Source: a virus
Length of the DNA stretch: 41,289 bases
Strand: one strand, 5' to 3'
Virus record (IMG/VR): IMGVR_UViG_3300005264_000163
Span: 1 to 41,289 of that record
The translations under genes and the position numbers were made by a program. The notes beneath the pieces were generated by a model that saw nothing but the letters and a program-made list of their open reading frames with translations, was not told where the DNA came from and made no database searches. Position 1 is the first letter of the stretch; every line of letters starts with the position of its first letter. Below are positions 2,567 through 34,078 of this stretch, one piece after another.

Positions 2567-2674
2567 ATTACGAAAAATGCAATGTTTTAACACGCAGCGC
2601 AGCTGGGGCCCGATATCAAAATTGGGTTAACTAATTGATTTTTATAGGGAATTGTATTTTACGAAATTCGTAAT
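2567..2674 (+). repeat. 108-bp inverted element, copy A (MITE-like)
   Basis: Bounded by ATTACGAA at one end and TTCGTAAT at the other. The end at 2660-2673 is itself a palindrome (TTACGAAATTCGTAA). Its reverse complement aligns without gaps to 33971-34078 at about 80% identity (21 differences in 108 by hand count). Both copies contain AATCAATT and TTTTGATATC blocks. It fills most of the gap between the last tail gene and the early promoter. Likely a small non-autonomous mobile repeat or a protein-binding site. Confidence 0.65.
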
Positions 2675-2688
2675 GGAATTGACAAATA

Positions 2689-3302
2689 TTATTTAAGCTT
2701 ATGCTTTTTTAATTGTCTATTAAGATTCTTTTTAAACAATCTATCTTTTTTTCTCATTGATAATAAGCTAGCCGGTTTCAGCCATGGCCTGGCTTTAGTA
2801 ACAATTGATTTTTCCGGCTTATAAGTTCTGACGGGAAAAGCCTTATTTTTAAGAACTTTATAAATACCATAAGGTGTTGAAGCAAATCTTTTCTTTAATG
2901 TTCTTGCAACCTTTAGAGCAGCAGCCATTCTTCTTTTTGGATTTGTAATCTTTTTGCTCCCCCTTACCAGCCCGGCCTTTCTAAATCTAATTGTCTTTTT
3001 AGGATCCTGACCTCTTGCTGGAACAAGAAGCTGTGTTCTAAATCCAGCACCCCTGCTTTTAATTTGCTTTAATTCTCCACCCTCTTCCTGTCTTGCTGCG
3101 ATTCAATATATTTTCTGGTCCTTGCACTTTTATAATCAAAGACTTTATTCATTGTATCTTTGCTGGTATCTTTGATTTCAAACGCTATATCATTGATATA
3201 ACCACGGACAGCAGCAGGAATTAATTTTTTAGGTGCCGTGACAGAATACCAATCCATTGCTTTTTTATAATCATCAGTATCTAATATTATCGTATCAGCC
3301 AT
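2689..3302 (-). CDS. Phage tail-region hypothetical protein, basic C-terminus, frameshifted
   Basis: Last gene of the late operon. Starts with ATG at 3302, overlapping the hub stop. The first frame gives 77 residues (MADTIILDTDDYKKAMDWYS..., ending QQDRKRVEN). From about 3085 the next frame continues GGELKQIKSRGAGFRTQLLV and runs without a break to a stop at 2689, about 204 residues in all. The C-terminal half is very Lys/Arg-rich. Position after gpN and gpP homologs suggests a baseplate or tail completion role, but I do not recognise the family. The break is probably a single indel near 3075-3090. Confidence 0.5.
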
Positions 3303-4436
3303 TATACCGGCACCACAGCAGCTTCAAGAACACCTGTAAATGAAGCCTGCCTTCCACCACTTGTTGCTGTGGTAAGTTTTACAGACCTTATCACATGCCT
3401 TTCACTGCTTTCAATTTGAAGTGAAGGATCTTTTATGGTAAATACATTGCCAGGTTTTAAGATATTATCATTATCATCAAGCCAGGAAGGAATCGAAGAA
3501 GATATGATTTGAGCATCTGCAAGGGCCTTTTTTGCTTCATTTTCAATTTTATTTCCTTCGTTTTGCTTTGAAGAAATAATCACTATAAAGCTTTGTTCCA
3601 TCATAAACGGCACTATTTTTCCTTTCAGGATTTTCAGGCTTATCAATTGTAAGAACTTCTTCAGAACCTTTTACAAGCCGATTTATCAAAAGATCACCAT
3701 CAGCTGTATTTGACAATATAATGCTGCGATCTTTTGCCATTTTAACAAGAAAAGAACCAATAAATTCTGTTTCAGCAATTGAAATTTCATCATATATAAT
3801 ATTAGCTTGTTCCTGTGCTGCATTTGTGACTTTCACATCAATTCCAAAAGGATTACAAAGCTGTGAAGCAATCTGTTTGAACGAAAGACCATCAAATTTT
3901 CTTGGATATTGATTAGGTGGAAGATTACATTCACCCAAAACACCGGTTTTTGAATATCCCTTTGCAACAATCGAAGTTGAATCATCACCTGAAGTAATTT
4001 CAATAATTGGAATTACACCAGTTAAAATCTTTTTTTCCTGGAAAAATATTCTGGTTGATTGATATTTGAATCGTTTTAAAACATCCTTATATGGCTCCAC
4101 ATTATTATATGAAACCGCAATTGAAAAACTATCGGCAATTTGATCCAGATTCAAATCTATGGTTATTCCTGACCAGGCACGGAATATTTCACCATTGATT
4201 TCAATTTGAATATCACCTGTTTCAGTTAAAATTTCTGTTGATGGTTGTGTCCCAACATCTGGAATTATGAGTATTTCACCAGGATAAACAAGATCTTCAT
4301 TTGCAAGATCACCACTTGTACGACCATTTAAAAACGGATTCGCTTTATATATCTTTAAATATAAAGAAGGGTTTGAATAGTACAAACCCGCAATTGATCC
4401 AAGGGTATCACCCTTTTTAACTGTATGCTGTTTCAT
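3302..4436 (-). CDS. Baseplate hub (Mu gpP / late control D-like) with N-terminal LysM, frameshifted
   Basis: The first about 60 residues are a LysM domain (HTVKKGDTLGSIAGLYY ... YPGEILIIPD). A late-control-D type hub follows (FRAWSGITIDLNLDQIADSFSI, then GYSKTGVLGECNLPP). The frame breaks near 3580-3590: the upstream frame ends at 3549, while the other frame carries the family C-terminus (SSKQNEGNKIENEAKKALAD ... PGNVFTIKDPSL) to a stop at 3302. Repaired length is about 377 residues, normal for Mu gp44/P-like hubs. The hub forms the central tube of the baseplate above the spike. Four-base overlap with the gpN-like gene upstream. Confidence 0.75.
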
Positions 4437-5743
4437 TATGTGTAATAAATCAATTCTGTTCCTGGTTGTACCTGAAATATTTTAATTCCTCTGATTTTAT
4501 TTATCAACATAAAATCTTCAACTTTTTGCTGCAAATCATCAATGTTTGTTGCACCTAATAATTCATAGACTAAAGAATATAAATCACTAATTTTATTAAC
4601 AGTAACAGTTCTTTCCTGCTTTAATTGAAATATTAATTCCTCCAGCTTATTAGAAGTAATTGCTACAATAGATAACATTTGCTTAATTGCGTCTAAATCT
4701 GGTTCATAGGAATTCAATTCATCTGCAAGAATAACAGAATCTATTTGAGCAAAGAATTCTACTGACCATTCATAAATAGTATCTATTATATCAAAAACTT
4801 CCTGTCTGGTGCTAAAATCATCAATTTTTGAAACTATGGATCCCTGGCATATTCCAATGATAATTGCTGGAAATATTAGTTCATAATTTGTGATATCCTT
4901 TATAATTAAATCTTCCTTAAGTGATTTATAATATTCAACTTTTGATTTTGGTGTTAATTTTTCTTGATCGGTTGTTGTTTTCCCTACCAAACCAACATAA
5001 CCACGCATTACCAGGGCTGCAGATTTAGGGGTACTATCTATTGTCGATATTAAACTAAGGGCTGAAAAACGTATGCTTTCGGCTTCTGCAAGGAAATCTG
5101 TAGAAGTACCATAAAATGTATTAATTGCAGTGGCTACCTTTTCAGTTATGGTATTTAATTCATTTTTTGTTTCTGAAATTGGAAATATACTGTCATCAAC
5201 ACCGAATGGTACTAAAGTTTCCTGTCCGGCCAGCCCGGTTTGAGAAACATTTTTTATTTCAATAACATCAACAAAATTATCAGCAGCATCTTCTGTGGCA
5301 TTTGTTGAAATATTATCTACTTTTACAATGGAATTTTCAGTATTTTCCGGCCTTCTTCCTGCAATTGTCTCATGCATCGATATATTAAATGCAGTTTCAT
5401 TTGCACCACTAACAAGATTATCATTTCTACGCAAAGACAATACAGCACATCTGAATGGTTTTTTGTATAATGGATGATAAAATAATACTGGCCTTATATC
5501 TTTTGTGGCTTCTTCAAATTGTGTTGCAACCTGATCATGATCGGAACCGCTAAACCATAAGGGAAAAGAAAAGGAATCACCACCAGCGCTTAATTTTTGC
5601 ACATAATCACCAGAAAATTCAGAAAAAGTGAAAATAACGGCTCTATCGGTCCGGGATTTAGGAATATCCTTTAATTCTATTGCAAATTCCTGACCATTTC
5701 CAGTAACAATTTTTGAATCTCTAATTCTGTCTTGCCAACTCAT
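4436..5743 (-). CDS. Mu gpN-like tail/DNA circularisation protein
   Basis: 435 residues. The N-terminus, MSWQDRIRDSKIVTGNGQEF..., with FSGSDHDQVATQFEEA and PFRCAVLSLRRND, is typical of the DNA circularisation N-terminal domain of Mu gpN (gp43)-type baseplate proteins. The rest is mostly predicted helical and less conserved. Followed at once by the gpP-like hub, the same N-P pair as in Mu. Expected to act in the baseplate and the initiation of sheath assembly. Confidence 0.8.
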   Translation of the reverse strand: MSWQDRIRDSKIVTGNGQEFAIELKDIPKSRTDRAVIFTFSEFSGDYVQKLSAGGDSFSFPLWFSGSDHDQVATQFEEATKDIRPVLFYHPLYKKPFRCAVLSLRRNDNLVSGANETAFNISMHETIAGRRPENTENSIVKVDNISTNATEDAADNFVDVIEIKNVSQTGLAGQETLVPFGVDDSIFPISETKNELNTITEKVATAINTFYGTSTDFLAEAESIRFSALSLISTIDSTPKSAALVMRGYVGLVGKTTTDQEKLTPKSKVEYYKSLKEDLIIKDITNYELIFPAIIIGICQGSIVSKIDDFSTRQEVFDIIDTIYEWSVEFFAQIDSVILADELNSYEPDLDAIKQMLSIVAITSNKLEELIFQLKQERTVTVNKISDLYSLVYELLGATNIDDLQQKVEDFMLINKIRGIKIFQVQPGTELIYYT

Positions 5744-5789
5744 TATTCAACCTTCACCTTTGAACTAATTACGATATCTGGCATTGGAA

Positions 5790-6101
5790 TTATTGTATTT
5801 CAATTTGTCCGTCATTTTTTATATATAAAGATCCTTTTATAATACCAGTCTCACTTCTTCCATTAATCTTTATTTCACCATCTTTGATATCTGTTTTTAA
5901 TTGCACACCCAAAACAACAGCTTTTCCTGTTTTATCTAGAGGTATTAATAAACATTTTTCATCTTTTAATGGTATAGTTTCAATTCCAGGCATTGTAAAT
6001 ACTGTATGTTCTTGTGAATCATCCAGCAGTACTTCAACAAGCAATCTTTTTAAACCATTTTTAATTGCTGATTTTATAGCTTTTACAATACTAGGCTTCA
6101 C
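5790..6101 (-). CDS. Mu gp45-like baseplate spike protein (short)
   Basis: 103 residues from a GTG at 6101 with AGGAAAAGG just upstream. An N-terminal helix is followed by a beta-rich OB-like segment (HTVFTMPGIETIPLKDEK, then KTGKAVVLGVQLK) and a repetitive beta tail (KINGRSETGIIKGSLYIKND). This matches the layout of Mu gp45 / gpV-type central spikes, though it is much shorter than Mu gp45. It precedes gpN and gpP here, whereas in Mu it follows them. Confidence 0.65.
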   Translation of the reverse strand: MKPSIVKAIKSAIKNGLKRLLVEVLLDDSQEHTVFTMPGIETIPLKDEKCLLIPLDKTGKAVVLGVQLKTDIKDGEIKINGRSETGIIKGSLYIKNDGQIEIQ

Positions 6102-6110
6102 ACCTTTTCC

Positions 6111-6338
6111 TCATTTTTCAATAGCTTGAATTTTAGTGAATTCAATTTTTAAATCAGTGATATTTTGATTCATATCTTCCAATTTATTTAAAATAATTTG
6201 ATTTTGGATTGCATAATCAGATTGTGAAACAAATTTGCTTTTGAAACTACCAATATAAACACCTACGACAACCAAAGCAGTACAAAATCCACCTGAAGCC
6301 AGTATAAGACCTATGAAAGTTCCCATTGATATATGCAC
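6111..6338 (-). CDS. Small single-pass membrane protein with coiled coil
   Basis: 75 residues. One strong membrane segment (FIGLILASGGFCTALVVVGVYI, cut here to its core near residues 8-29), then a helix with coiled-coil character (ILNKLEDMNQNITDLKIEF). This XhlA/holin-like or spanin-like layout could make it a second lysis protein, but it sits among tail genes, away from the endolysin at 26.8 kb. Function uncertain. Confidence 0.5.
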   Translation of the reverse strand: MHISMGTFIGLILASGGFCTALVVVGVYIGSFKSKFVSQSDYAIQNQIILNKLEDMNQNITDLKIEFTKIQAIEK

Positions 6339-6349
6339 AAATTTCCCTC

Positions 6350-7933
6350 TTAATTTCTTAATTTTTTAACTGAAAATGTGACATCGGCCAATATAATATC
6401 CTGTGTATTGGTATCATTCCATACATATAATTCAAGCTTTGTACCGGCTGTTAACGAATCTTGACCCGATATACTTACAGAACCGAATTCACCACCACCC
6501 CCGGCCATATTTCTATGTGCATGTAACATATCATGTGAGACTGTGCCACTTGAACTATAGATACCAAAACCGTATGCAGCAGCTGGTCCACCAACAGAAT
6601 CAGGTGTTATTGATAATATTATTTCATATATACCATCTTCAACAATTTCGATATCTTGATTAGGAATTGAAGGAATTATTTTACTAGTATTAGGCCCCAA
6701 TTGATCAAAATAGTCAAATTTCTTTTTATTTCCTTCTCCTATTCCAGAAATGGTTGTTACAGTTGCATTGTCTCTTGTATATATACATCCTTGTTCATGG
6801 CCAATAAGATTATCAATAATACCATTTTCTTTACCTTTTAATTTATCTTCAGCAGAATCATACCAGATTTCACCATCGTTTGTGGCAACATCACTTTCAC
6901 CTAATATTATTGAACCGCCTGAAGTTAAATAACCTAATAAATTAAATTGCCAAAATTTATCTAATATCAACAAACTGCCAGGACCGGCTGCCGGTGTATA
7001 AAAACTTATGGTAAATGAACCACTAGCAGCGACATTTAAGGTAAAGGCATTTTCGCCATTTGTAGAAACAATTTGCATGAGATTATTAATTGCTGCATTT
7101 TTCCAAAAATTATAATCACCAGTAGTTGGATTTTCATAAAAAACAATGTTCGGAGAGAATACAATTCTTGGAAGATCTTTTATATAATTAGGATCCCATT
7201 CTGAAGATATCGGAAATACTGTAATACCAGGTTGTGTTGGTGTAACAGTCTGTGCAATAATATCTTCCCCCCAAAAATTAAAGGCATCTACCATTGGCTT
7301 GCCTTTAATAATCACATCAACAAGAAAGTATGTTGTGGTATCTGTAAAATTAAAATCTTCAGCAAGCTCACCGACTACATTTTTAGTATTTAATAAATCA
7401 GTATTATTATTCAAATCCACTGTAATAAATCCAGCACTAAAAAAACTGGAATCACCAGCATAAATACTCGTTCCCTTTGTTGCAACGACAGGACCGGCTG
7501 TTCTATTTCTAACTTTTAATGTAACTATTCCTTGAACAGTCAGTTTGCCAATGGCTTCACTTACTCCAAGCCATGTATTATAATCATTGCTGCTTAAACC
7601 ATATGAATAACGACACAAAAGATTTAAATTAGAAACGTCAAGATCAGGTGCATCAATTATAACTTTATTAGGAGTTGGAACAGTACCAATCAATGAAAGA
7701 AGTGCTGTTTTAAATTGTGATACATCTATATTTTCCGCTGATTCATTGGGAACAATTCCCGCTTCTTTCATAACTGCAAGCATTGCATATCCGCAATCCG
7801 TCATTAAATTTGTTTCAAGTAATGGTGTTCCATTTCTTGCACTTGGTGGATCACTGTTTCTGGCTCTTCCATATGGATATGATGCATCAGGAGGATCTAT
7901 ATTTGGAACACCCTGTCCAGTTAAAGTTCTCAT
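6350..7933 (-). CDS. Tail fiber paralog 2
   Basis: 527 residues, AGGGG before the ATG. The first about 95 residues (PNIDPPDASYPYGRARNSDP, PPSARNGTP, MLAVMKEAGIVPNE) are the same anchor domain as in the genes at 8350-10965 and 10974-11578, so all three probably dock at the same baseplate site. The middle contains one copy of a roughly 150-residue module (TPTQPGI ... GPGSLLILDKFWQFN ... DGEIWYDSAEDKLKGKENG) that recurs in the longer fiber. The C-terminus is a beta-rich, probable receptor-binding head with a C1q-like look (GIYEIILSITPDSVGGPAAA). Confidence 0.7.
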   Translation of the reverse strand: MRTLTGQGVPNIDPPDASYPYGRARNSDPPSARNGTPLLETNLMTDCGYAMLAVMKEAGIVPNESAENIDVSQFKTALLSLIGTVPTPNKVIIDAPDLDVSNLNLLCRYSYGLSSNDYNTWLGVSEAIGKLTVQGIVTLKVRNRTAGPVVATKGTSIYAGDSSFFSAGFITVDLNNNTDLLNTKNVVGELAEDFNFTDTTTYFLVDVIIKGKPMVDAFNFWGEDIIAQTVTPTQPGITVFPISSEWDPNYIKDLPRIVFSPNIVFYENPTTGDYNFWKNAAINNLMQIVSTNGENAFTLNVAASGSFTISFYTPAAGPGSLLILDKFWQFNLLGYLTSGGSIILGESDVATNDGEIWYDSAEDKLKGKENGIIDNLIGHEQGCIYTRDNATVTTISGIGEGNKKKFDYFDQLGPNTSKIIPSIPNQDIEIVEDGIYEIILSITPDSVGGPAAAYGFGIYSSSGTVSHDMLHAHRNMAGGGGEFGSVSISGQDSLTAGTKLELYVWNDTNTQDIILADVTFSVKKLRN

Positions 7934-7941
7934 TATTACCC

Positions 7942-8340
7942 CTATATTACAATTATATTAACAATTCCAGACAAATTTACTTCAAGATCTTTTGGAAGAT
8001 TATTATAATCTTCATTACTAATTTCAACATCGATAATATTAAATTCATCAAGTTTTTCATCTTGGTTGATATATTGATGAAATGAAGATTCAAAAGCGAT
8101 TTTATCAGTAGGATTTTGAAAGGTATAATATGGTGGTTTTTCTGCATTCTTGACAATTGCTCCACCATATTTTGTAATTTGTAAATAAAATGGTGTTTTA
8201 AACCATTTTACCATTTTATCCATATGATCTAAAAGCTTCATAATAGAAATGGCATTATTAAAATTTAATTTCAAGGTTAATAAATGTTTCAACCCGGATT
8301 GTATTAATCCTTCATAAATTTTATTTCTGTTAATATTCAT
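7942..8340 (-). CDS. Hypothetical protein between two fiber genes
   Basis: 132 residues, AAGGATT before the ATG. Helical N-terminus (KIYEGLIQSGLKHLLTLKLN) and an acidic C-terminus ending in a hydrophobic strand (LSGIVNIIVI). Sits in the position where fiber assembly chaperones or cap proteins are often found. No family recognised. Confidence 0.5.
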   Translation of the reverse strand: MNINRNKIYEGLIQSGLKHLLTLKLNFNNAISIMKLLDHMDKMVKWFKTPFYLQITKYGGAIVKNAEKPPYYTFQNPTDKIAFESSFHQYINQDEKLDEFNIIDVEISNEDYNNLPKDLEVNLSGIVNIIVI

Positions 8341-8349
8341 TTTTAATCC

Positions 8350-10965
8350 TTAAGTATCATTTATTTTTTTACCTGAAAACCTTGTTTCCTCTTGATTTTG
8401 TATAGTTGCATTAAAACCTGTTAGATTCTGACAATAAACTTCTAAAGTATCACCACTTCCAAGTTTTATTGCCATTGAAACACTAATAAATCCTGTTGCC
8501 GCATTTTCAAAATCAACAGTTTGACCTGCTTTTGTTGTTCCATTATGTCTTATTTTTAATGAAAATATACCACCCCACGAAACTGTGACTTCAACCCTTG
8601 CATGAACATCAATGTATGCATCAGTCGAACCATTAGTATATGTGGAACTTCCAGTACTCCAGTTTCCACCTTCATCAAGATTTTCTGTTTGAAAAAGAAC
8701 TTTAACATCAGAAGATCCGGCAATTACCTGGCTGCTATTATTTTCAACATCAAAACCATATTGATCAATACCACCACCACCATCAATTAAATCACTATCG
8801 ACACCATTCTCACGACCTCTAAGTTTATTGGTTCCAGTATCATACCAAATTTCACCATTTTGACGTGTTCCACTTACTCGATCACCAACAATTAATGAAC
8901 CAAGTATTTGAAGTATATTTCTATTTAGAACAAGAAGATCCAACATGGTAAAAAGAGTATCAGCAACTGATTCAGAATCATCACTTCTTTTTATTGTGTA
9001 TGTGCCTGAAGATCCATCATATTCAACGGACCATCCAAAATAATCACCGCTTCCCTGAGATCTACGATATTCATCAGAACTATTTGTATAGAGTTGAGAG
9101 GTATTTATTAATTTTGAAAGTTGATCGACTATACCATGTCTGAATCCTATTTCTATTCCAATATCAAGAACATCCCAATTATTTTGAACAAAATCACCAA
9201 CACCAAGCCAATTTTCATTGAGATATACATTTTCAGGATAAACACCAACACTTTCAGCAAGATAAATCCAACGAATTGCAGCATTATATTGCGCAAGCGT
9301 TAAATGATATCTTTCTCCAGCTCCACCACCTTGAATTCCATTTTTACTATTGTGATTATTAATTGCATATGAAACGCCATTTTCACGGCTTTTCATTTTA
9401 TTTGAATCACCTGCATCTTTCCAAATGTCACCATCTATTATTGATAATCCATGATCACCGAGTCTGATTGCAGCAGTAGTATTTAATAGTCCATTATGAT
9501 CAAATTGCCAAAAATGATCAAGTGTCAATAGATCACCAGGACCACCAGTTGGTGAATAAAATATTATTGTAATTTGATATGGATTTTTTATTATAACACT
9601 TGCATCCAGACCATTTGTTGACACCAATTGTCCAAGATTATTATATGCTGCATTTATGAACTCTCTCAATTCATCAGCTGTATTGTTATAATATTTGACA
9701 ACATTTTCTTTAAAGACAATTCTATTAAAATCTTTTATTTCAGGTGGATCCCATTGAGAAGATATTTGTTCAAGCGCAATACCTGGTTGAACAGGTGTAA
9801 CAGTTTGTTCGGTAGCATCTTCTGTCCATAATGAATCTGCTGTAATCAAATCACCGGTCACACCATTTTCACGGCCCTTCAATTTCCCGCCCACTGAATC
9901 ATACCAGATTTCACCATCATTAACGGCAATATCACTTTTGCCTAAAATCAAAGAAGCGCTTGACAATATAAAACCCTGTTTATTAAATTGCCAGAATCTA
10001 TCCAATACCAAAAGACTTCCCGGCCCACCAGAAGGAGTATAAAAACTAATTGTAAAAACTCCAGTGTCAGAAATGTAAAGCGTAAAAGCCCCTTCACCAT
10101 TTGTAGAAACAATTTGCATAAGATTATTAATTGCAGCATTTTTCCACAAATTGGCTTCACCAGTTGATATGTTTTCAAAAAATACCATATCAGCCGAAAA
10201 TACAAATCTTGGATGGTCCTTTATATATGTAATATCCCATTGAGAAGATATCTGTGATATTGCAATCCCTGGTTGTGTCGGTGTAACGGTTTGTTCAGTC
10301 AAATCTTCAATCCAGAAATTATTACTGTCAACCATGGGCTTTCCCTTGATCACAACATCGACCAAGAAATAAGATACTGTATCTGTAAAATTGAAATCTT
10401 CCGCAAGTTCACCAACAATATTATGTGAATCAAACAGATCACCATTATCATTAAGAGTGTTCTGAATATATCCAGCACCGTAAAAACCCATATCACCGGC
10501 AAAAACATTTGTTCCTTTTGGTGCAACTACTGGAATACCAGTCCTATTTCTGATTTTTAATTTAGCAATGCCTTTTACGGTCAATTTTCCTTCTGATTCA
10601 CAAATACCTACCCAATTATTGAAATCATCATTACTTAATCCAGTATCATATCTACAAAGAAGATTTACTTTAGTAATATCAAGATCTGGTGCATCGACTA
10701 TTACCTTATCTGTAATACCGATTAATGCAAGTATAGCATCTAAAAATTGAGAACTATTAATGTTTTCCGGCAATTCATTTGGTATTATAGATGCTTGTTT
10801 CATTACCGCTAATAATGCATATGGTATATCAGTAAGAAGGTTTTCTTCCTGAATAGGAGTACCATTCCTTGCACTTGGAGGATCACTATTTTTTGCCCTG
10901 CCATGTGGATAATCAGTGCTTGGAGGATCGATATTTGGTATACTTTGACCGTCAAGTGTTCTCAT
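8350..10965 (-). CDS. Tail fiber paralog 1 (long, with internal module duplication)
   Basis: 871 residues, AGGAAT before the ATG. Shares the N-terminal anchor (PNIDPP.DYPHGRAKNSDPP) with the two other fibers. It then carries two tandem copies of a module beginning TEQTVTP.QPGIA..QISSQWD and ending LKGRENGV or MKSRENGV, plus a third partial copy (GEIWYDTGTNKLRGRENGVD). The C-terminal about 130 residues are a distinct beta-rich tip (SSTYTNGSTDAYIDVHARVE). Nucleotide similarity to the 6350-7933 gene is high in the module (compare 7055-7110 with 10095-10150), which would allow recombination. Confidence 0.75.
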   Translation of the reverse strand: MRTLDGQSIPNIDPPSTDYPHGRAKNSDPPSARNGTPIQEENLLTDIPYALLAVMKQASIIPNELPENINSSQFLDAILALIGITDKVIVDAPDLDITKVNLLCRYDTGLSNDDFNNWVGICESEGKLTVKGIAKLKIRNRTGIPVVAPKGTNVFAGDMGFYGAGYIQNTLNDNGDLFDSHNIVGELAEDFNFTDTVSYFLVDVVIKGKPMVDSNNFWIEDLTEQTVTPTQPGIAISQISSQWDITYIKDHPRFVFSADMVFFENISTGEANLWKNAAINNLMQIVSTNGEGAFTLYISDTGVFTISFYTPSGGPGSLLVLDRFWQFNKQGFILSSASLILGKSDIAVNDGEIWYDSVGGKLKGRENGVTGDLITADSLWTEDATEQTVTPVQPGIALEQISSQWDPPEIKDFNRIVFKENVVKYYNNTADELREFINAAYNNLGQLVSTNGLDASVIIKNPYQITIIFYSPTGGPGDLLTLDHFWQFDHNGLLNTTAAIRLGDHGLSIIDGDIWKDAGDSNKMKSRENGVSYAINNHNSKNGIQGGGAGERYHLTLAQYNAAIRWIYLAESVGVYPENVYLNENWLGVGDFVQNNWDVLDIGIEIGFRHGIVDQLSKLINTSQLYTNSSDEYRRSQGSGDYFGWSVEYDGSSGTYTIKRSDDSESVADTLFTMLDLLVLNRNILQILGSLIVGDRVSGTRQNGEIWYDTGTNKLRGRENGVDSDLIDGGGGIDQYGFDVENNSSQVIAGSSDVKVLFQTENLDEGGNWSTGSSTYTNGSTDAYIDVHARVEVTVSWGGIFSLKIRHNGTTKAGQTVDFENAATGFISVSMAIKLGSGDTLEVYCQNLTGFNATIQNQEETRFSGKKINDT

Positions 10966-10973
10966 TATTATTC

Positions 10974-11578: not shown

Positions 11579-11589
11579 TTTAAACCTCC

Positions 11590-13362: not shown

Positions 13363-13375
13363 TTTAAACTCAATT

Positions 13376-13400: not shown

Positions 13401-14441
13401 AATATAAATTATATTACTCACTCTAAAAATTTCATTTTGTTCAACTTCTCTTTCTCTTTCAGATATATTCCAATATGCATCACTTATAACACCGCCATAA
13501 ATTGCCACTGCATCAAAAATGACAGAAACGAGTTCAACACGTCTTAATGTATCATTTTTTGCAGTACTTCGATCAACACCATCAACAAAAGGCTTTATTG
13601 ATTTAAAATAATTTTCTACAGTTGAAAGAATATTATTCTGCCACAATCTGAAAGTGGTATCTTACTATCAATTTTCCTTATTACCGCATCAATTAATTCA
13701 GGACTGGCTATACCATCACCAATAGTACTTTCAATAACAATCCATGCAGAACCAAGAAGATCATCATTATCACCAGCATAAGGATAAACTCTTTTAACAC
13801 CACTGACCTCTTCAGACCAAAGAACATAATCACCTCTGGCACCTCCCCTGGGAGGGATTCTATAAGCCTGAAGAACATCTTCTTTATATTCAGTTATAGA
13901 TTCTGATTCTGTTGGTTCAACAACAACTTCAGTTATTAATGAAGGATTATCAATACCAGCAAGGATTTGCGTAGAACTAATTAAATCACCCGGTTTCAAC
14001 GCTGCTGGAATTCCACCAATGTCTGAAATTACAACACCTTCTGATACTCCAGTTTCACTACTACTGGTAAATCTTGCATTTGTTGCATTAAAATTTAATA
14101 TGCTTGAAAAATTTACCCGATCAGTATCTGAACCCTCATTAACAACAACACGCTCTTTTAATGTGTAACTAAAACCTGTATTTGTATTTATAAAACTATT
14201 TCCAGCTTCATATATTCCACCAGTACCTTCAAATTGCACCCTATATTCACCACGACCTTCAACAAATGGTTTCCTTCCTAAATATACCAGCATTCCACAA
14301 TTCTTTTGCATGAGATTCTGCAATTGCTTTTTCAACAGTTTTTTTATTGAAATCAGGATTGTACGATGGGAAAAAAGCTTGAACAGCTAGAACTATTCCA
14401 TCAAATATTTCCTGTGTCAAATTTGCGAACGATTTAAACAA
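13398..14441 (-). CDS. Second baseplate J (Mu gp47)-like protein, two frameshifts
   Basis: Starts at 14441, overlapping the first baseplate J gene by 8 bases. Three open segments in successive frames: 14441-14259 (MFKSFANLTQEIFDGIVLAV...), about 14290-13616 (YLGRKPFVEGRGEYRVQFEG ... RGGARGDYVLWSEEVSGVKR), and about 13660-13398 (STVENYFKSIKPFVDGVDR). Joined they give about 346 residues with a standard baseplate J layout. GARGDYVLWSEEVSGVKRVY is clearly homologous to GNREDLLFWSLQIAGIRRVY in the upstream gene, so the two are paralogs. Breaks near 14285 and 13650 look like single indels. Confidence 0.65.
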
Positions 14442-15816: not shown

Positions 15817-17473
15817 TTAAAAACTCCATGCAGGTGGAAGATCCAATTTAAAAGAATCGGGCGATCCTGTCTGTTTTGTAACTTGCGCACGACCGGTTTC
15901 ATCTTTTATAGTAACTTCAGCTGTAGATTTCTCTATTGTTTCATTTGTTTGTTGTAATGTTTTAACAGTTGCTTCAGGCCCTGCAACACCTGGTGTTTTT
16001 ATTCCTTGCCTATTCTCTTCTTCTTCTTCTGATTTCTCAATACGAAGCTTTGCACTTGCTTCAATTTCTTGCTGTCCTAAATCACCTAATTTTTTCAAAC
16101 CTTTTCCCACAAAAGGAACAAATGCAAAAAGCTTTGCAAGGATCTGTATCACACCGACAATACCTGCAAATATAAAATCAATAACAACTTTAAAAGCCAA
16201 TTTAATCTTGTCAAAATGTTTAATGAGTTGAATAATTATAAAAATTAAAGCAGCAATTCCAAGAATTATTAAGCCTATTGGAGAAGATGAAAAAAGAAAA
16301 TTAAATACTGCTATAGCAGCATTGACTGCGACAATTGCAGCAACGAGCAAACCAAGCACAGCAACAGCAGAAGTTATTGCAATAACTATATCAATTAATA
16401 TTGGCCCAAATGGACCCAACAATTCAAATGCCTTAGACATAATTCTAGTAAATTTAGTAACAGCTTTTATTGCCAGTTTAAATGCAGGTGCAAATGCTTC
16501 AAATAATTGTATTTTTAAACCTTCAATTGCACTATTCATTTCTCGAAGTGCACCATCAGTATTATCACGCATAACAGATGCTAATGTTTTTGTAAATCCT
16601 GTTGCACCTTGCAATTCTGCTGTATAATCTCTTAATGCTTTTCCGCCATTATTTAATAAAATATTAACACCTGCAATTGGGATCTTACCAAATATATCAT
16701 TCAATGCAGCTGCTCTTTTTACACCTTTTGGCAATTTATTATTCATTTCATCCAATAATCTGGAGAAATCTTTTAAATTTCCATTTTCATCTGCCAGAGT
16801 TATTCCCATTTGTTTAAACGCTCTTCTTCCAGCAGATGTTGGTGCTTGCAATTTTAAAAACACATTTTTTAGTGTTGTTCCAGCCTTTTCACCCTTTATT
16901 CCTGCATTAGCAAGCAATCCAGCAGCAGCACTGAATTGTTCTATATGAACACCTGCTGCACTGGCAACCGGACCGCCAGAACGAATTGCTTCAAAAAGCT
17001 GTTCAATACTGGTATTTGCAGTAACAGAAGTTTTCGCCATTACATCTGAAACCCTGGCTAGATTTTCCTGTAACTGGACACTATCCTTGGTCATTAAATT
17101 AAAAGCACCAAGTGAATCAGTTGCAATATCAGTTGCCTGCCCTAAATCAGTTTGTGCTGCTGTTGCAAGATCCACAGCACCGGGAAGTGCTGCTATTGAT
17201 TGACTGGCATTGAAACCGGCCAAAGCAAGAAAATTCAAACCTTCAGCAGCCTCAGAAGCTGTAAATTCTGTTGTTTTTCCTACTTCTTGTGCAGATTGTT
17301 TCAATTGGTCAAAAGCTTCTGATCCTTTTCTTATCTGACCGGGAAATTTTGCAGCAGCACCGACCAATGTTTTTTCAATTACGCATATTTCTAGAACCGG
17401 TTTTTCCAACTTTCTTAAAAACCTTTGACATTCTGTCAACTGCTCTTAATCTTGTTGATACTGAAAAGGGCAT
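15817..17473 (-). CDS. Tail tape measure protein, frameshifted near the N-terminus
   Basis: Start chosen at the ATG at 17473, which has AAGGA 8 bases upstream and encodes MPFSVSTRLRAVDRMSKVFK. That frame stops after about 32 codons. The adjacent frame carries IEKTLVGAAAKFPGQ and the TP901-type tape measure core (GKTTEFTASEAAEGLNFLAL). A long hydrophobic stretch (about residues 345-415) matches the membrane-inserting segments of tape measures. Break near 17375-17400. About 550 residues, short for a contractile tail, so the tail should be short. Confidence 0.8.
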
Positions 17474-22010: not shown

Positions 22011-22020
22011 TTCTGCAACC

Positions 22021-23612: not shown

Positions 23613-23640
23613 ACTACCACCTTTTTTTGAAGTTAAAAAT

Positions 23641-23658
23641 TAATAATTATTAATTAAT
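23641..23658. repeat. AT-rich palindromic intergenic repeat
   Basis: TAATAATTATTAATTAAT tract between the protease and decoration genes. Confidence 0.35.
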
Positions 23659-23683
23659 GCCTATAAATTTGAAAGAAGTGAAA

Positions 23684-25075: not shown

Positions 25076-25077
25076 AA

Positions 25078-26793: not shown

Positions 26794-26802
26794 AGAAATC
26801 CT

Positions 26803-27866: not shown

Positions 27867-27893
27867 AGAAAACCTTTCCTGGTCATTACCCTT

Positions 27894-27922
27894 ATTTAAT
27901 CACAAAGTAATAAAAAATGCAA
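27894..27922 (-). promoter_or_regulatory. Promoter of the lysis-head-tail operon
   Basis: Minus strand: TTGCAT (27917-27922), a 17-base spacer ending TTGTGA, then TTAAAT (27894-27899). Near-twin of the promoter at 2487-2515. Transcript would run from the holin gene towards the tail genes. Confidence 0.55.
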
Positions 27923-27957
27923 GCCTTGTCAAAGAAAAAATTTAAAAGTAATAAATA

Positions 27958-27986
27958 TTGCAATTTCAAAATCCATAAATTATGTT
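27958..27986 (+). promoter_or_regulatory. Promoter of the replication island
   Basis: TTGCAA (27958-27963), a 17-base spacer, TATGTT (27981-27986). The 20-base motif at 27988-28007 begins one base after the -10, over the expected transcription start. The leader up to the GTG at 28122 holds a 7-bp hairpin (CATCCTT/AAGGATG, 28024-28041). Confidence 0.5.
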
Positions 27987-27987
27987 A

Positions 27988-28007
27988 TTGTTTGACATTC
28001 TGTAACA
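27988..28007 (+). promoter_or_regulatory. Operator-like 20-mer, copy 1
   Basis: TTGTTTGACATTCTGTAACA. The same 20-mer with one change occurs on the minus strand at 34922-34941, again abutting a -10 box. It contains imperfect dyad ends (TGTT ... AACA). Likely target of a repressor or activator encoded by the phage. Confidence 0.5.
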
Positions 28008-28121
28008 CCCTGCTTCAAAATTCCATCCTTAAAAAAGGATGATTATACCGGTGAAACCGCGCGAGAAATTTCAAAAATAGTCTTTTTGTGTTTTTTGCGT
28101 TTAAATTAAAGAGGAATCAGG

Positions 28122-28943
28122 GTGAATTTTCGTAACAAACCCTCGTTCCTCTATTTTTTTTCATTTCTGGAGAATGGACCTATGGAAGAAAATATTGAAT
28201 ATGATATTACACAGGAACCAATAGTTCTTTCAAAAAGCATCATAGATATTTGTCTCAAAACACCAGAACCTTCGGATACAATTGCTTTATACACTTTCCT
28301 GTATTATACTGCAAAATGGCAAAAAACAAACACGGTGAAAGCCAACATTCGCTTTATAATGAAAGCCCTAAAATGGGGAAATCGAAGAGTTTCTGAAGCA
28401 AAAAAGCTGTTAACTGCTGTGGGATTGATTAAAACAGTAAAAAGGAATGTTGCTGATAATATAGGCTGGTATATAGAAATCAAATTCATCTGGTCCAGTG
28501 AAACAGTTAAAAAAATTGCCGATTCCAGCCAAATTAATGGAAGAAGTGCTACCCAGCACTTCTTCAAGAAGTGCCAAAAGGAACATGTTCCTTTTAGTCA
28601 CACAAATGCTTTAAGTACTATTATAAGAAATGCTTTAAGTGCTGTTATGAAAAATACCGCTGATCGGGAAGATCTGCTGAATGAAATGATAAAATTAAAA
28701 TCGATAATACCCCCGGATAAAGAATGGATACTTGTTTTTTTCAAGCTTAATAATTTTAAATCGGATCCTGAAAAATATTTTAATCATTATCAATCTGTTA
28801 ATTGGAAAAAAGGTAATTCAAAAATCACAGACTGGCAGGCAAACGCCTGGTTATGGGAATCAAACGAAAAAAAACTTGTTGTTACTAATGGAAAATGCAG
28901 CAGTAAAGAATTATATGATAAATTAAAATCAAATGCAGTCTGA
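28122..28943 (+). CDS. DnaD/phage-O-like replication initiator
   Basis: 273 residues from a GTG at 28122 with GAGG 7 bases upstream; an ATG at 28182 with GGAG is a possible alternative and would remove the hydrophobic first 20 residues. A winged-helix region (PSDTIALYTFLYYTAKWQKT ... WGNRRVSEAKKLLTAVGLIK) is typical of phage replication initiators. Near the C-terminus, KITDWQANAWLWES resembles the end of DnaD/O-type proteins. Followed by the helicase gene, the classic initiator-helicase pair. Would recruit DnaB to the phage origin, probably in or next to this gene. Confidence 0.65.
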   Translation: MNFRNKPSFLYFFSFLENGPMEENIEYDITQEPIVLSKSIIDICLKTPEPSDTIALYTFLYYTAKWQKTNTVKANIRFIMKALKWGNRRVSEAKKLLTAVGLIKTVKRNVADNIGWYIEIKFIWSSETVKKIADSSQINGRSATQHFFKKCQKEHVPFSHTNALSTIIRNALSAVMKNTADREDLLNEMIKLKSIIPPDKEWILVFFKLNNFKSDPEKYFNHYQSVNWKKGNSKITDWQANAWLWESNEKKLVVTNGKCSSKELYDKLKSNAV

Positions 28944-28954
28944 AAGGTGGTAAT

Positions 28955-30298
28955 ATGTTATTTGATCTCACCCTTGAACAAGACATTTTAACTTCAGCAA
29001 TAACCTGGCTGAAAGAAGATGGTATTGCAAATGCAAAAATTCTGATAGAATCAACAACCGAAAACGATTTTTATAATACAACCTATCGTGAAGTTTACAA
29101 TTTAATAAAAAAAGCATTATCAAAAAAAATAATACCGGACCAGTTAAATCTTGAAAATATTGGCTGTTCTGAAGATGCTAAAAATTGCATTTTCGAACTC
29201 GAATCACATAGATGTTTTACTGACATAAGACCCTTTATCAGAAGATTAAAAGTAATTGCAAAATCAAGAAGGCTCTGCATGGTAACGACCGGATTGCAAA
29301 AAATATTTAATGAGGGCATTGAGAATATTGAAGAAAATTATAATACTGCTGAAGAAAATATTACTACTGTTTTGAAAGAACGAATTTCAGCTGATCAGGG
29401 TCATTTTATGAAAGATAGATTGGGCCATTATTTTGAAAATCTAGAAAAAATGATTAATGAAGAAAAAGAACCGGGTATTCCTACCGGCATTAAAAAATTT
29501 GATGATTTAACAGGTGGATTAAGACCTACTGAATCCGTTCTTATTGCAGGAAGGCCAGGAATGGGGAAAAGCAGTCTTGCACTTTCAATCATAGCACATT
29601 TGATTTTAAACGGTTTCAAACCAGCATATTTCAGTCTTGAATTAAGCGAGACAGAAATATTCAATAAATTATTTTCCATAATTTCTGAAATGCTCAAAAT
29701 AAAAAACAATGAAGATGAAAGCAATATCATCAGATATAGATGGTTGAGAAGACCGAAAGGAAACAAAAACAATCTTAACAGATTGGGAATAATAGCGGGA
29801 ATGATTTATGAATCATTTTTTTATTACAATTGCGATCCATATCAGGATATTGCTGAAATCAAAAGCATTTGCAGGGAATTAAAATATGGGAAAGGTCTTG
29901 ATATAGCTATAATTGATCATTTTGGAAGGATGGTAAAAGATCACCGTCAGGAATATGCAGAATTGACACATATGTCAAGCGAAAGCAAAAATCTGGCAAT
30001 TGAATTAGATTTTGTAACAATGCCCCTGGTCCAGCTGCGGAGAGATTCAGAAAAAACAGGGATGCCAAGTCTATCACATTTAAAAGGTACCGGTGCATTT
30101 GAAGAAGATTCTGATATTGTTCTCTTTCCCTGGAGACCGCATATAATTAATCGAGATCAACACGAACCGGAAGAAGCAATATTAATAACCGGGAAAGCCA
30201 GAAATGATATTATACCGAATATTAATATGCGATTTTCAACAGCTACAACATTGTTTTCATATGATTCAAATGCTGGTGAATTTCATGAAAATGATTAA
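28955..30298 (+). CDS. DnaB-like replicative helicase
   Basis: 447 residues, AAAGGTGG before the ATG. N-terminal DnaB domain (EQDILTSAITWLKEDGI), then a RecA-like ATPase: GIPTGIKKFDDLTGGLRP, Walker A GRPGMGKSS at 199-207, FSLELSETEI, Walker B LDIAIIDHF, and the arginine/sensor region VQLRRDSE ... MPSLSHLKGTGAFEEDSDIV. All are hallmarks of DnaB. Walker B ends IDHFGR rather than the common IDYLQL. Unwinds DNA at the fork. Confidence 0.88.
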   Translation: MLFDLTLEQDILTSAITWLKEDGIANAKILIESTTENDFYNTTYREVYNLIKKALSKKIIPDQLNLENIGCSEDAKNCIFELESHRCFTDIRPFIRRLKVIAKSRRLCMVTTGLQKIFNEGIENIEENYNTAEENITTVLKERISADQGHFMKDRLGHYFENLEKMINEEKEPGIPTGIKKFDDLTGGLRPTESVLIAGRPGMGKSSLALSIIAHLILNGFKPAYFSLELSETEIFNKLFSIISEMLKIKNNEDESNIIRYRWLRRPKGNKNNLNRLGIIAGMIYESFFYYNCDPYQDIAEIKSICRELKYGKGLDIAIIDHFGRMVKDHRQEYAELTHMSSESKNLAIELDFVTMPLVQLRRDSEKTGMPSLSHLKGTGAFEEDSDIVLFPWRPHIINRDQHEPEEAILITGKARNDIIPNINMRFSTATTLFSYDSNAGEFHEND

Positions 30299-30320
30299 TA
30301 ATTATTAATTTATAATTAAT
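30295..30320. repeat. AT-rich palindromic intergenic repeat
   Basis: Tract covering the helicase stop and the gap before the next small gene. Confidence 0.35.
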
Positions 30321-30332
30321 AAAGGAAACAAT

Positions 30333-30512
30333 ATGGTAAAAACAAGAGAATGTTTAAGCTGTAAAGTAAATGGTATATATGATAGTTGTTGTCCACACTG
30401 TCAAGGAAGTGGAAAAGTAATATATAGAGAAGATGATTATTGTGAAAGAAATTGTGTGGGTAAAGGAACTTATTATTGTCCTATTTCTTCTTGTATTTAT
30501 AATGAAAATTAA
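30333..30512 (+). CDS. Small Cys-rich zinc-binding protein
   Basis: 59 residues, AAAGGAAACA before the ATG. Eight Cys: CLSC, CC, a DnaJ-like CPHCQGSGK, then C..NC and C...C. Looks like a compact zinc ribbon. Function unknown; lies in the replication island. Confidence 0.55.
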   Translation: MVKTRECLSCKVNGIYDSCCPHCQGSGKVIYREDDYCERNCVGKGTYYCPISSCIYNEN

Positions 30513-30529
30513 ATTTTATTAATCAAAAA

Positions 30530-30709
30530 ATGGAGTTTGATATATGTAAAAAAACATGTATTGGTGGGATCATTATTAATGATTATTCTTTTCTGCCATG
30601 TAACACAAAAGATTGCCCTTATGAAAAAAAAAGCCTAGATGGTAATATTGAAATTGAGTTTGAAAATGAAACACAAGGTGTTATTATTCGCAAATTAAAA
30701 GAACAATAA
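30530..30709 (+). CDS. Small Cys-containing hypothetical protein
   Basis: 59 residues (MEFDICKKTCIGGIIINDYS...CNTKDCPYEKK...). Two CxxxC-type pairs suggest zinc binding. No strong ribosome site, but the 17-base gap to the preceding gene and full open frame support it. Confidence 0.4.
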   Translation: MEFDICKKTCIGGIIINDYSFLPCNTKDCPYEKKSLDGNIEIEFENETQGVIIRKLKEQ

Positions 30710-30747
30710 TTATTAATTAAAAATTATTATGGAAAAAATTATGAACC
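30708..30747. repeat. Duplicated 40-bp leader, copy 1
   Basis: Matches 31201-31240 at 38 of 40 bases. Includes an AT-rich intergenic tract and the first codons (ATG(G/A)AAAAAATTATGAA) of the following gene. Confidence 0.65.
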
Positions 30748-31202
30748 ACAAAGAACTAGTATTAAAAGCCAGTAAATGGTTAAAGTCTATTGGTTGTACA
30801 GTTGTTTTAGAAGAACTTACAACAAGATGTCGTGAAACACCTGATTCTATTGGATGGAGAGATTCTCTTTCAATTTTGGTTGAATGTAAAACTTCAAGAT
30901 CTGATTTTTTAGCCGATAAAAAGAAATTTTTTAGAATGTCATATGGTGAAAAGTATGCTTTGGGTGACTGGCGTTTTTATATGTGTCCAATAGGAATTAT
31001 TAAACCATGTGATTTAATCGGTACCGGTTGGGGCCTACTGTATGTTGAATCCATTAATAAAAAGATTAAGCGTATTTTAGCACCAAAAGGAAATACTAAA
31101 TGGCATCCAGCACCATTTAAAGGCAACAAAAAAGAAGAAAACATGCTATTGGTTTCTGCTCTTAGAAGAATAACTAAAGGGAAAGTGTTTAGAAATATAT
31201 AA
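30729..31202 (+). CDS. PD-(D/E)xK-like nuclease family phage protein
   Basis: 157 residues from 30729, or 153 from the ATG at 30741 that has GGA at a better distance. SILVECKTSRSDFLADKKKF carries the E-x-K of a restriction-like nuclease core, and PIGIIKPCDLIGTGWGLLYV follows. I know this pattern from conserved phage proteins adjacent to replication genes. Could process recombination or replication intermediates; activity not proven. Confidence 0.6.
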   Translation: MEKIMNHKELVLKASKWLKSIGCTVVLEELTTRCRETPDSIGWRDSLSILVECKTSRSDFLADKKKFFRMSYGEKYALGDWRFYMCPIGIIKPCDLIGTGWGLLYVESINKKIKRILAPKGNTKWHPAPFKGNKKEENMLLVSALRRITKGKVFRNI

Positions 31203-31240
31203 TTATTAATTAAAAATTATTATGAAAAAAATTATGAATC
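31201..31240. repeat. Duplicated 40-bp leader, copy 2
   Basis: Second copy of 30708-30747, placed before the small membrane protein gene. Confidence 0.65.
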
Positions 31241-31371
31241 AAAAATTATTTCCTACAATTATAATAATTCTTTTTATCTGTGCTTCTGGAGTATGCTTTT
31301 ATCATGGTGATTGGAGAAAAGGAATTTGTTGGTTTGCAGCAGCTGTTCTGAATGCAGCAATTACCTTTTAA
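31222..31371 (+). CDS. Small membrane protein
   Basis: 49 residues (MKKIMNQKLFPTIIIILFIC...). One hydrophobic N-terminal helix and a second weaker one near the C-terminus (WFAAAVLNAAITF). Start could be the fifth codon by analogy with the duplicated leader. Role unknown. Confidence 0.4.
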   Translation: MKKIMNQKLFPTIIIILFICASGVCFYHGDWRKGICWFAAAVLNAAITF

Positions 31372-31372
31372 T

Positions 31373-31582
31373 ATGATAACCAAACAATCATCACTACCAT
31401 GTAAAACTTGTGGATCCTATTATCGAAATGGAAACCATTGCAATGTATGTGGAGAATTTTTAATTGAACCAAAATATACAACTCTTAGGAAACAGATAAA
31501 ACCAATGAAGAGATTGTGGAGTAAAAGAAAACATAGATATTTGACACAAGAAGAAATATCAAGAGGGGAAAAGGGTGGTTAA
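31373..31582 (+). CDS. Zinc-ribbon small basic protein
   Basis: 69 residues from the ATG two bases after the previous stop (an in-frame ATG at 31352 overlaps it). CKTCGSYYRNGNHCNVCGEF is a clear four-Cys zinc ribbon, followed by a Lys/Arg-rich tail (LRKQIKPMKRLWSKRKHRYL). Likely nucleic-acid binding. Last gene of the plus-strand island. Confidence 0.5.
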   Translation: MITKQSSLPCKTCGSYYRNGNHCNVCGEFLIEPKYTTLRKQIKPMKRLWSKRKHRYLTQEEISRGEKGG

Positions 31583-31810
31583 AAAGGGCTTAATGAAAAA
31601 ACTTAGGCTTTTCGTTTTGCATAATTTCTCATACAATAACGGCTGCTTTTTTACTGGTCATCATTATAAAAAATAACCCTTGTAGGTATCTCTTCAGCCA
31701 GTCTATTTCAGCAGCGGTTTTTTCGCCATATTTCATTCACAAGCCCTTCACATCTATCAAAACCCCAAATTAAAATATGTAATTTATAATTATTAATCAA
31801 GAATTATTAA
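31583..31810. other. Intergenic, convergent gene ends; possible gene remnant
   Basis: 228 bases between converging units. On the minus strand ILIWGFDRCEGLVNEIWRKN followed, after a stop and a frame change, by LAEEIPTRVIFYNDDQ reads like an eroded C-terminus. No clear terminator is seen; AT-rich tracts fill 31781-31819. Confidence 0.3.
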
Positions 31811-31819
31811 TTAATATAA
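31781..31819. repeat. AT-rich palindromic intergenic repeat
   Basis: Two TTATAATTATTAAT-like units around the end of the gpW-like gene. Confidence 0.35.
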
Positions 31820-32041
31820 ATATACAGTGTTACAAACATCACCTTCAGCTTCTGCAATTTCATTTTCAAGCATAGATTTCATTTCTCGAAGTTGTTCAAG
31901 ATCCGCATTCTTAACACGCTGATCAATCTGGCCGTCATTCAAAGAATGCTCCTGTGCACCGGTAACAATTGAGCTGATTTTATCACATACCTGCTGATAT
32001 AAAACTTTGTTTGCTGCTAGCGTATCATTTAAGAAGGACAT
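31811..32041 (-). CDS. gpW-like head-tail joining protein
   Basis: 76 residues from the ATG at 32041 with AGGGG upstream; an earlier in-frame ATG at 32065 overlaps the terminase end and is less likely. C-terminal DQRVKNADLEQLREMKSMLE matches the pattern of lambda gpW (x-V-x-x-A-D-L-x-x-L-x-x-x-x-x-x-L), and the length fits (lambda 68). gpW plugs the portal and prepares it for the tail. Confidence 0.65.
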   Translation of the reverse strand: MSFLNDTLAANKVLYQQVCDKISSIVTGAQEHSLNDGQIDQRVKNADLEQLREMKSMLENEIAEAEGDVCNTVYLY

Positions 32042-32054
32042 TTCAACCCCTTTT

Positions 32055-33960
32055 TTAAAGTTCAAAATACTCTAATAAGAAAGGTACATTATTTTCACTG
32101 AAAAATCTATTAAAATCTGCCATCATTGACCATTTATCCATTCTTGGAATATCCCATACATCACAAATAATTCTAATATAAATTTCAATTGCAGCCAGGT
32201 TATAAACGTGTGTATCGAGAAAATGGTTGTTTGGTGTTCTTTTTTTGAAGCCTTTTACTGCTTTGGATCCATCAGGAAGATCAACATAAATAGGAACTTC
32301 AGATTCATAGGTTTTAAAAAAATCTTCATCAAACCCATTTCCGGAAATACCCACACCGAACTGTTCACCAAGATTCATTTTTTCAAAACCACCACTGTAT
32401 ATATCATCCGGATAATTAGGAAAATTATATGGCTGGATCTGTGGCCTTCCTTCCCACTGAAGATTTAAATATTCAAACAATTGTATTTTATAATATCGGG
32501 TATCAATATTAAACACCTTTGTTCCATCAATTATAACCTTATGATGCTTTTTGCTTCCTGAAAGTTTTTCGACTCCCCGGACCGGGATTGAAAAGGGATG
32601 CGAATTTGTAAAATGAAAAACTTCATCCCTTCTATAACCACAATCGATTGCCGTTATTGCAATTTCATATTCAATATTATCATCACTTAAATATTTTGAA
32701 TCAATGATATGCTCCAGGGCTTTCCAGGTGTTACCATCCTTATCCAGGGATCCGTGAATTCTTCCCTTTGCTATTATATAAGTCTGCCCACTTAAGCAAT
32801 GTCCAATGATTTCAATACCGAGCCAAGAATCTTTTTTGTTAACGTCAACAGAGCAAGTTAACACCAGAATAGGACCATTTTCATCTGCAATTGCTACTTT
32901 ATTTGGAACAGTTAATGTTGATATATCCCTTCTTTTTTCATTAAAAATACGCTTATGACTGACAGAATGAACAACATCTTAAACTGTACACACCATTGAT
33001 CAAATAGGATCTGTAATTTTTATCAGAAGGCTTTTGTGTTGGTTGCCAATAGCCATGGTTGATCATTTCAAATTTTTCATAATCATTAATCGGCTTTCCA
33101 CATTCACGGCACTTGTAATAAACGGATTCAGGAAGCAAAATATCATTATCATCTGTTTCAAATTTTAGATTATATACACCGTCATTAACATATTTATTAT
33201 TGATCAATCCACCACGCCAGAAAAGAGCTTGGAAGATACCACAGCGAGGACATGGTACCTGCCAGTATCTTTTATCACCCAATTCTATTTGTCGGTATAT
33301 ATGGCTTGTAGCAGCATCCAGGGGCGTAGATAATAGCAGTATCTTTCTGTCGTTATCAAAGGCATCACTTCTATCAATAAATAATTCAACAGGATCACCA
33401 TGCTTTGTAACGACTGGCCAACCGTCAATTTCATCACCCAGAAGTATAGGTGCTGAAAATTGCCTCATTTTATTTGGGTTTTGTGCTCCTATAGCATATA
33501 AAGTACCACCTTCATATTCTTTTTTTCCACGTGTATCACCGGTTTTTCTGCTGAATTTTTTATATGTTATTGGCTTTATCTTATGGCCTATTTTGCAACT
33601 TTCGATCATCGAATCAATCCTGGTATCCATATTGTCTTCAGCAAGCTCCTTGTCGGCTGTAGCGTATCCAATGGATCTAGGATATACATCTATGGTATAA
33701 CCAATGATAGGTTCTAGAATGGCCTGTGTAGCACCAATCTGAACAGGTTTCATCAGCACTGATAATTGTACCGGACTATCCGGAGCAAAATTATCAAATA
33801 TTTCTTTAAAATAGGGAGACCAGCGCCAATCGAATGGACCTGGCCTTTTAGAATATGCTGCGGTTAAACTTCTTTTTTGAGTGCACCACAATGAAGGAAG
33901 AATGAATTTTCTAGAAGGTTTTGCAGAATCAATCAGCTGAATTAGTGGCTCTCTACTCAT
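32055..33960 (-). CDS. Terminase large subunit (lambda gpA/GpA family), frameshifted
   Basis: Segment 33960-32953 has the ATPase: FDNFAPDSPVQLSVLMKPVQ with VQIGATQ in the Walker A position, GDEIDGWP as Walker B, and zinc-like CPRCG ... CRECG. The frame then stops. The nuclease half continues in another frame from about 32985 (VHSVSHKRIFNEKRRDISTL), through LTCSVDVNKKDSWLGIEIIG with the first nuclease Asp, to 32055. Total span 635 codons, normal for gpA, but the linker between the zinc motif and VDV is about 40-50 residues shorter than I expect. It cuts and pumps DNA into the head. Confidence 0.8.
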
Positions 33961-33970
33961 ATATAATTTT

Positions 33971-34078
33971 GTTACGAAATTCGTAAAATATGATTCCCCA
34001 TAAAAATCAATTGATTAAACCAGTTTTGATATCCGGCACCAGCTCCACCTGGTGCAAAATTATTGCATTATTCGTAAT
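33971..34078 (-). repeat. 108-bp inverted element, copy B (MITE-like)
   Basis: Inverted, ungapped counterpart of 2567-2674. Ends TTACGAA and TTCGTAAT, and a 7-bp stem GCACCAG/CTGGTGC lies inside. Occupies nearly all of the unusual gap between TerS and TerL. On the minus strand it reads as a 31-codon open stretch ending in TAA (APGGAGAGYQNWFNQLIF...); copy A carries the equivalent reading (AAGARYQNWVN, stop, LIF...). Confidence 0.65.

Follow-up and report, generated by a model that had tools for sequence, protein, structure and literature searches.

A probable MITE-like element present twice, in diverged form, in a phage-plasmid-like genome, with one copy between terS and terL

Why would a phage-type genome carry the same 108-bp sequence twice, in inverted orientation and with one copy set between two terminase genes? 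The genome concerned is IMG/VR virus record IMGVR_UViG_3300005264_000163, and the window is the whole of that record, 41,289 nucleotides. The window has a 104-nt terminal repeat, so the record is taken to be circular or circularly closed. It encodes a GpA-type terminase, a portal protein, a DnaB-like helicase, and ParA, a combination which makes the record phage-plasmid-like, and almost all of its genes are on the minus strand. ParA is accompanied by an unclassified partner of 96 amino acids (both within 38560-39719), pointing to plasmid-type maintenance. Paralogous tail-type genes at 6350-7933 and 8350-10965 have common repeated blocks with approximately 70-77% DNA identity and a spacing of approximately 3,041 bp. 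The initial annotation placed the two 108-bp copies more than 30 kb apart; this is correct in one direction (31.3 kb), but the record is of circular type and across the origin the copies are separated by 9.7 kb.

The initial annotation reported two ungapped 108-bp copies with about 80% identity, and realignment reproduced them with coordinates right to the base and an identity of 81%. The copies and their end blocks are as follows.

2567..2674, plus strand: copy A of the 108-bp element, 87 of 108 bases identical to copy B, in the orientation ATTACGAA...TTCGTAAT
33971..34078, minus strand: copy B of the 108-bp element, 87 of 108 bases identical to copy A, no gap
2568..2582, plus strand: left 15-bp end block of copy A, TTACGAAaAATGCAA, differing from copy B at the central base only
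2659..2673, plus strand: right 15-bp palindromic end block of copy A, TTACGAAaTTCGTAA, differing from copy B at the central base only
34063..34077, minus strand: left 15-bp end block of copy B, TTACGAAtAATGCAA, differing from copy A at the central base only
33972..33986, minus strand: right 15-bp palindromic end block of copy B, TTACGAAtTTCGTAA, differing from copy A at the central base only

The identity expected from base composition is 28%, and the binomial probability of the observed match is approximately 4e-30 per placement, or approximately 7e-21 after all placements in the window are taken into account. The next best placement of either copy in the window has 52 of 108 matching bases, and an nhmmer search of the window with a two-copy profile found copies A and B but no third copy.

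The inverted ends described initially are present as a terminal inverted repeat, ATTACGAA, of 8 bp in copy A and 7 bp in copy B, and homology between the copies stops sharply at these ends. The copies differ by 21 substitutions and zero indels across the 108 bp. The statement that the differences do not fall at the ends needs correction: only two substitutions are within the 30 end-block columns, but each end block has one of them (columns 9 and 100, the central bases of the two blocks), and the final base of the element also differs (T/C). The left end block can be written as TTACGAAnAATGCAA and the right one as TTACGAAnTTCGTAA; the latter is a 15-bp palindrome, and only this end of the element is palindromic. 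The element contains no transposase gene, and no ORF is kept between the copies. A short peptide reading common to both copies, GAGYQNWFNQLIFMGNHILRIS, had been suspected of being a by-product of nucleotide conservation, and the sequence agrees: the changes are distributed 9/7/5 over the codon positions, with no third-position excess and thus no codon bias, and there are stops in that frame in both copies. The peptide had no match in plasmids.

Copy A is located between two minus-strand ORFs (2689-2928 upstream and 1781-2461 downstream) and is antisense to them, while copy B is between terS and terL and is sense to the terminase genes. The two copies are at unrelated loci and in opposite orientation relative to their neighbouring genes. 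Copy A had been described as sitting beside the early promoter, a description the analysis did not support: sequences resembling promoters are no commoner there than in shuffled DNA, and the ORFs on both sides are on the minus strand. Elsewhere in the window, an AT-rich and mostly intergenic motif is overrepresented, with 14 occurrences against 1.7 expected from first-order shuffles, and is possibly a phage promoter or regulator site.

2522, 13379, 21967, 23639, 30294-30300, 30708, 31201, 31788-31802, 36382, and others: motif AATTATTAAT

A second inverted pair of 30 nt at 83% identity (ATTGTTTGACATTC.GTAACA) is located at 27987-28016 and 34913-34942, in two intergenic regions of which one is divergent, and may represent an operator or promoter pair.

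Both copies of the 108-bp element are flush with imperfect direct repeats of approximately 9-11 bp, which are candidate target-site duplications.

2555..2566, plus strand: left flanking repeat of copy A, TTAATTGATCAA, candidate target-site duplication, a local match to the right flank
2675..2685, plus strand: right flanking repeat of copy A, GGAATTGACAA, a local match to the left flank
34079..34089, minus strand: left flanking repeat of copy B, AAAATTATAAT, overlapping the end of terS
33960..33970, minus strand: right flanking repeat of copy B, AAAATTATATA, running into the terL start codon

Scored against random placements of matched AT content and equal spacing, the flanking repeat of copy A has a p value of approximately 0.009. 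For copy B, the repeat consists of 9 exact bp plus a shifted AT/TA and has a p value of approximately 0.0003 against AT-matched placements, or 0.0014 if scored by exact length. Combined by Fisher's method, the two flanking-repeat p values give approximately 4e-5. The pair at each copy differs from the pair at the other, and when flanks are cross-paired between A and B the score is 4.5, similar to background, versus 7.5 and 9.5 for the copies' own pairs. AATT also lies at an identical offset in the right-hand repeat of each candidate duplication.

The initial annotation noted that copy B separates TerS from TerL, which is confirmed, and in relatives these genes overlap.

34080..34701, minus strand: terS region in two frames, an N-terminal helix-turn-helix (HTH) part at 34348-34701 and a C-terminal part at 34080-34403
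32055..33960, minus strand: terL, GpA-type large terminase, in two pieces at 32953-33960 and 32055-32864 (phrog_15, PF20454)

The region called terS is so named from its position upstream of terL; its N-terminal part matches HTH_26/phage-HTH-like domains and its C-terminal part gave no domain match. Between the stop of terS and the start of terL lie 119 nt, which copy B plus one flanking repeat make up entirely. With these removed, the junction reads TAA-T-ATG, that is, a stop, one base, and the ATG of terL; this reading uses the left repeat copy, the right copy being one A shorter before the ATG. The overlap between terS and terL is 8 nt in AeroV_348 and 17 nt in VP16T, whose small gene carries only a hypothetical annotation. 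These relatives do not have the element, but at approximately 39% TerL identity they are too distant to serve as a base-level empty site. The gap in the window and the overlap in relatives together look like the result of an insertion into a tight gene junction.

Several core genes in the window are broken. In terL, approximately 49 residues are missing at the break (32963-32983) in comparison with relatives, with a shift of frame, and terS (34348-34403), a LysM/late-control-like gene (3549-3646), and a baseplate J-like gene (14259-14441) are split between frames, as possibly is the start of the tape-measure gene (approximately 17380-17440). Such breaks are as expected of a decaying prophage-plasmid or of assembly indels. 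The terS frame split and the terL gap bear on whether the phage is functional; they do not affect the repeat itself.

Copies A and B are probably two old insertions of a single MITE-like element without a transposase. A MITE, putatively host-derived, was among the origins initially put forward; that it is a MITE gains support from the flush flanking repeats, the terminal inverted repeats, the opposite orientations relative to genes, and the nearly seamless terS/terL junction that removal of copy B and one repeat would leave. The element resembles MITEs in being short, in lacking a transposase, in having terminal inverted repeats, and in occurring as two copies at unrelated loci. The flanking repeats correspond to a target-site duplication of approximately 9-11 bp whose exact length is uncertain. 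According to this model, a transposase supplied in trans, probably from a host insertion sequence (IS), would recognize the TTACGAA sequence at each end and move the 108-bp unit into AT-rich target DNA, of which approximately 9-11 bp would be duplicated. Of the two insertions, one would have hit precisely the tight terS/terL junction, in sense orientation, and the second, antisense to its neighbours, a site between two minus-strand ORFs. The copies would now be without a function for the phage. The imperfect flanking repeats and the 19% divergence between the copies imply either old insertions or an origin of the two copies from distinct members of one family. The record evidently accepts insertions, since it carries a complete IS1182-type element.

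36397-38161: complete IS1182-type element with 18-bp inverted ends, TTGAGTTYACTCTAAAAA

Some features count against a MITE: the inverted repeat has a length of just 7-8 bp, the flanking repeats match imperfectly, no IS with the same ends was found, and no further copy turned up in the window or in the collections and genomes searched, although MITEs are usually multicopy in a host. One other class of small mobile element was considered and rejected. The IS200/IS605-derived PATEs have near-terminal palindromes, no terminal inverted repeats, and no target-site duplication (PMC3119063, partly general knowledge), while the 108-bp element has terminal inverted repeats and repeats resembling a target-site duplication, with a palindrome at one end only.

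Pac and cos sites are often located at terS/terL, where copy B lies, and the phage encodes a ParA; a cos/pac-linked site and a centromere for the ParA partner had both been suggested initially. A duplicated packaging (cos/pac) or partition (parS) site is nevertheless highly improbable. Copy A is 9.7 kb from copy B and adjoins no packaging or par gene, copy B looks inserted into its tight junction, neither copy adjoins the par genes (38560-39986), and just two diverged, inverted copies do not amount to iterons. Recombination or duplication within the phage could also have produced a pair of inverted copies, which would then flank a movable or invertible 9.7-kb segment, and the 9,673-bp arc between them does include parA, lipase-like, and IS genes. 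The same arc contains terS, homologous inversion would be poorly served by copies only 81% identical, and each copy has its own flanking-repeat pair, all of which makes this origin extremely improbable. That the element is a small structured RNA, a terminator, or a regulatory leader has a probability close to negligible. Copy B folds somewhat better than shuffled sequences (z approximately -2 to -2.5), but its hairpin is not kept in copy A and the orientation relative to transcription differs between the copies. Covariance folding, proposed as a check in the initial annotation, gave one compensatory pair among 22 and no convincing covariation; Rfam contained no match to the element, and no terminator was found at either copy.

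The conservation of the end blocks raises the alternative that each element is a portable pair of repressor-type operators, two 15-bp sites (TTACGAAnAATGCAA and TTACGAAnTTCGTAA) spaced by 91 bp, to which a Cro/CI-type regulator would bind. The regulator would come from the phage or a co-resident prophage, with operator pairs set at two points of the genome. Finding two or fewer of 21 changes in the 30 end-block columns has a p value of approximately 0.03, and the chance of both being central is 1 in 435, both figures being post hoc; zero indels with 21 substitutions and end-block changes confined to the centres would also fit a constrained binding element. Arrays of similar sites are present in three apparent prophages.

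L088, 1994-2107: array of TTACGAAnTTCGTAA-type sites beside Cro/CI-type genes
L004, approximately 5420-5535: array of TTACGAAnTTCGTAA-type sites beside Cro/CI-type genes
L013, approximately 1444-1558: array of TTACGAAnTTCGTAA-type sites beside Cro/CI-type genes

In the L088 contig, two occurrences of TTACGAAAAATGCAA and one of TTACGAAGTTCGTAA lie between divergent Cro/CI-type HTH genes, and the L004 and L013 loci, both from Lachnospiraceae, have similar three-site arrays beside HTH genes. These arrays share the same or similar 15-bp motifs with the element ends, but their sites are in the promoter region of a repressor, at other spacings, and without the element interior. Sites in L088 and L004 are at 0, -56, and -98/-100, in contrast to the 91-bp spacing in the element. 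In addition, L088 was found by searching for these very motifs, and its prophage is unrelated to the window phage. Neither end motif recurs in the window outside the elements, so none of its regulator genes has a promoter bearing such sites, and no repressor gene was identified next to either copy, where an operator region of the Cro/CI type would have one. Much of the element interior is conserved as well, and the flanks resemble target-site duplications. Operators alone are thus a very unlikely explanation. A combination of the two ideas, in which both ends of a mobile unit double as Cro/CI-type operators and transposition spreads repressor-binding pairs into phage genomes, is very unlikely; if true, copy B could bring the packaging genes under the control of a prophage repressor.

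A MITE-like insertion remains the best explanation. Relatives of the element were sought in several collections. BLASTN, the check proposed initially, found no full-length relative among phages and plasmids, the matches covering 23-35% of the query and being chance-like. Patterns searched in IMG/VR (core, right end, core with gap, and both ends) gave matches that share the motif only and no full-length relative, and a pattern of both ends with a free interior gave 10 matches in GTDB species genomes, again with the motif only. No full-length relative was present in approximately 1,240 sampled genomes (369 from the class of genome G001, and 192, 249, 247, and 183 from four phyla) or in 8 further genomes reached through loci. 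One match, in L082, extends over 35 nt but agrees with copy A for no more than 15 nt, and it was regarded as chance. The right-end palindrome, in four spellings, was in no paper of the literature searched. No IS with ends matching ATTACGAA was found. These negative results are weak because there was no host lineage to guide them and the phage is without a close relative, and an empty search result without a positive control shows little. Searches of IMG/VR with TerL, capsid, ParA, and transposase found two distant TerL loci and no close phage relative. In the host search, the best ParA matches were at approximately 30% identity and those of the portal, helicase, and TerL at 40% or less, while matches to the IS1182-type transposase in plasmids and four genome groups were at approximately 22-41%, mostly approximately 30%. 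A host carrying the parent IS is postulated, and the TTACGAA ends provide a ready tag by which that IS, and with it the host of this otherwise orphan phage, could be sought.

MITE-like elements have been documented extensively in the chromosomes and plasmids of bacteria. The presence of a full-length pair, now diverged, in a phage-plasmid-like genome, with one member in the terminase operon, suggests that passengers of this sort also become established in phage-type replicons, and the elements could travel with those replicons. The element is of an ordinary kind, probably mobile and MITE-like, while its sequence family was not found elsewhere in the searches above. The IS1182-type element is another transposable insertion in the same genome and has the only transposase identified in the window, but its ends, TTGAGTTYACTCTAAAAA, are unrelated to ATTACGAA, so it is not an evident parent or helper. 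The MITEs of Haloquadratum and Thiomargarita are transposase-less, are thought to be mobilized in trans, and have little beyond their ends in common with the helper (PMC3119063, PMC4853749). Compared by description, the 108-bp element is similar in being a transposase-less repeat that may depend on a transposase in trans, but theirs are chromosomal families with many copies. MITEAba12 of Acinetobacter is 113 bp long and non-coding, with a 9-bp target-site duplication, AT-rich targets, 16-bp terminal inverted repeats in common with the co-resident ISAba12, multiple copies in genomes, and proven mobility (PMC6382973). The element in the window differs in having terminal inverted repeats of 7-8 bp, no parent IS found so far, and only two diverged copies in a phage record. 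By description, however, the two are alike in their very small size, lack of coding sequence, terminal inverted repeats, target-site duplication length, and AT-rich target, and among described elements MITEAba12 appears to come nearest to it in size and in the length of the duplication.
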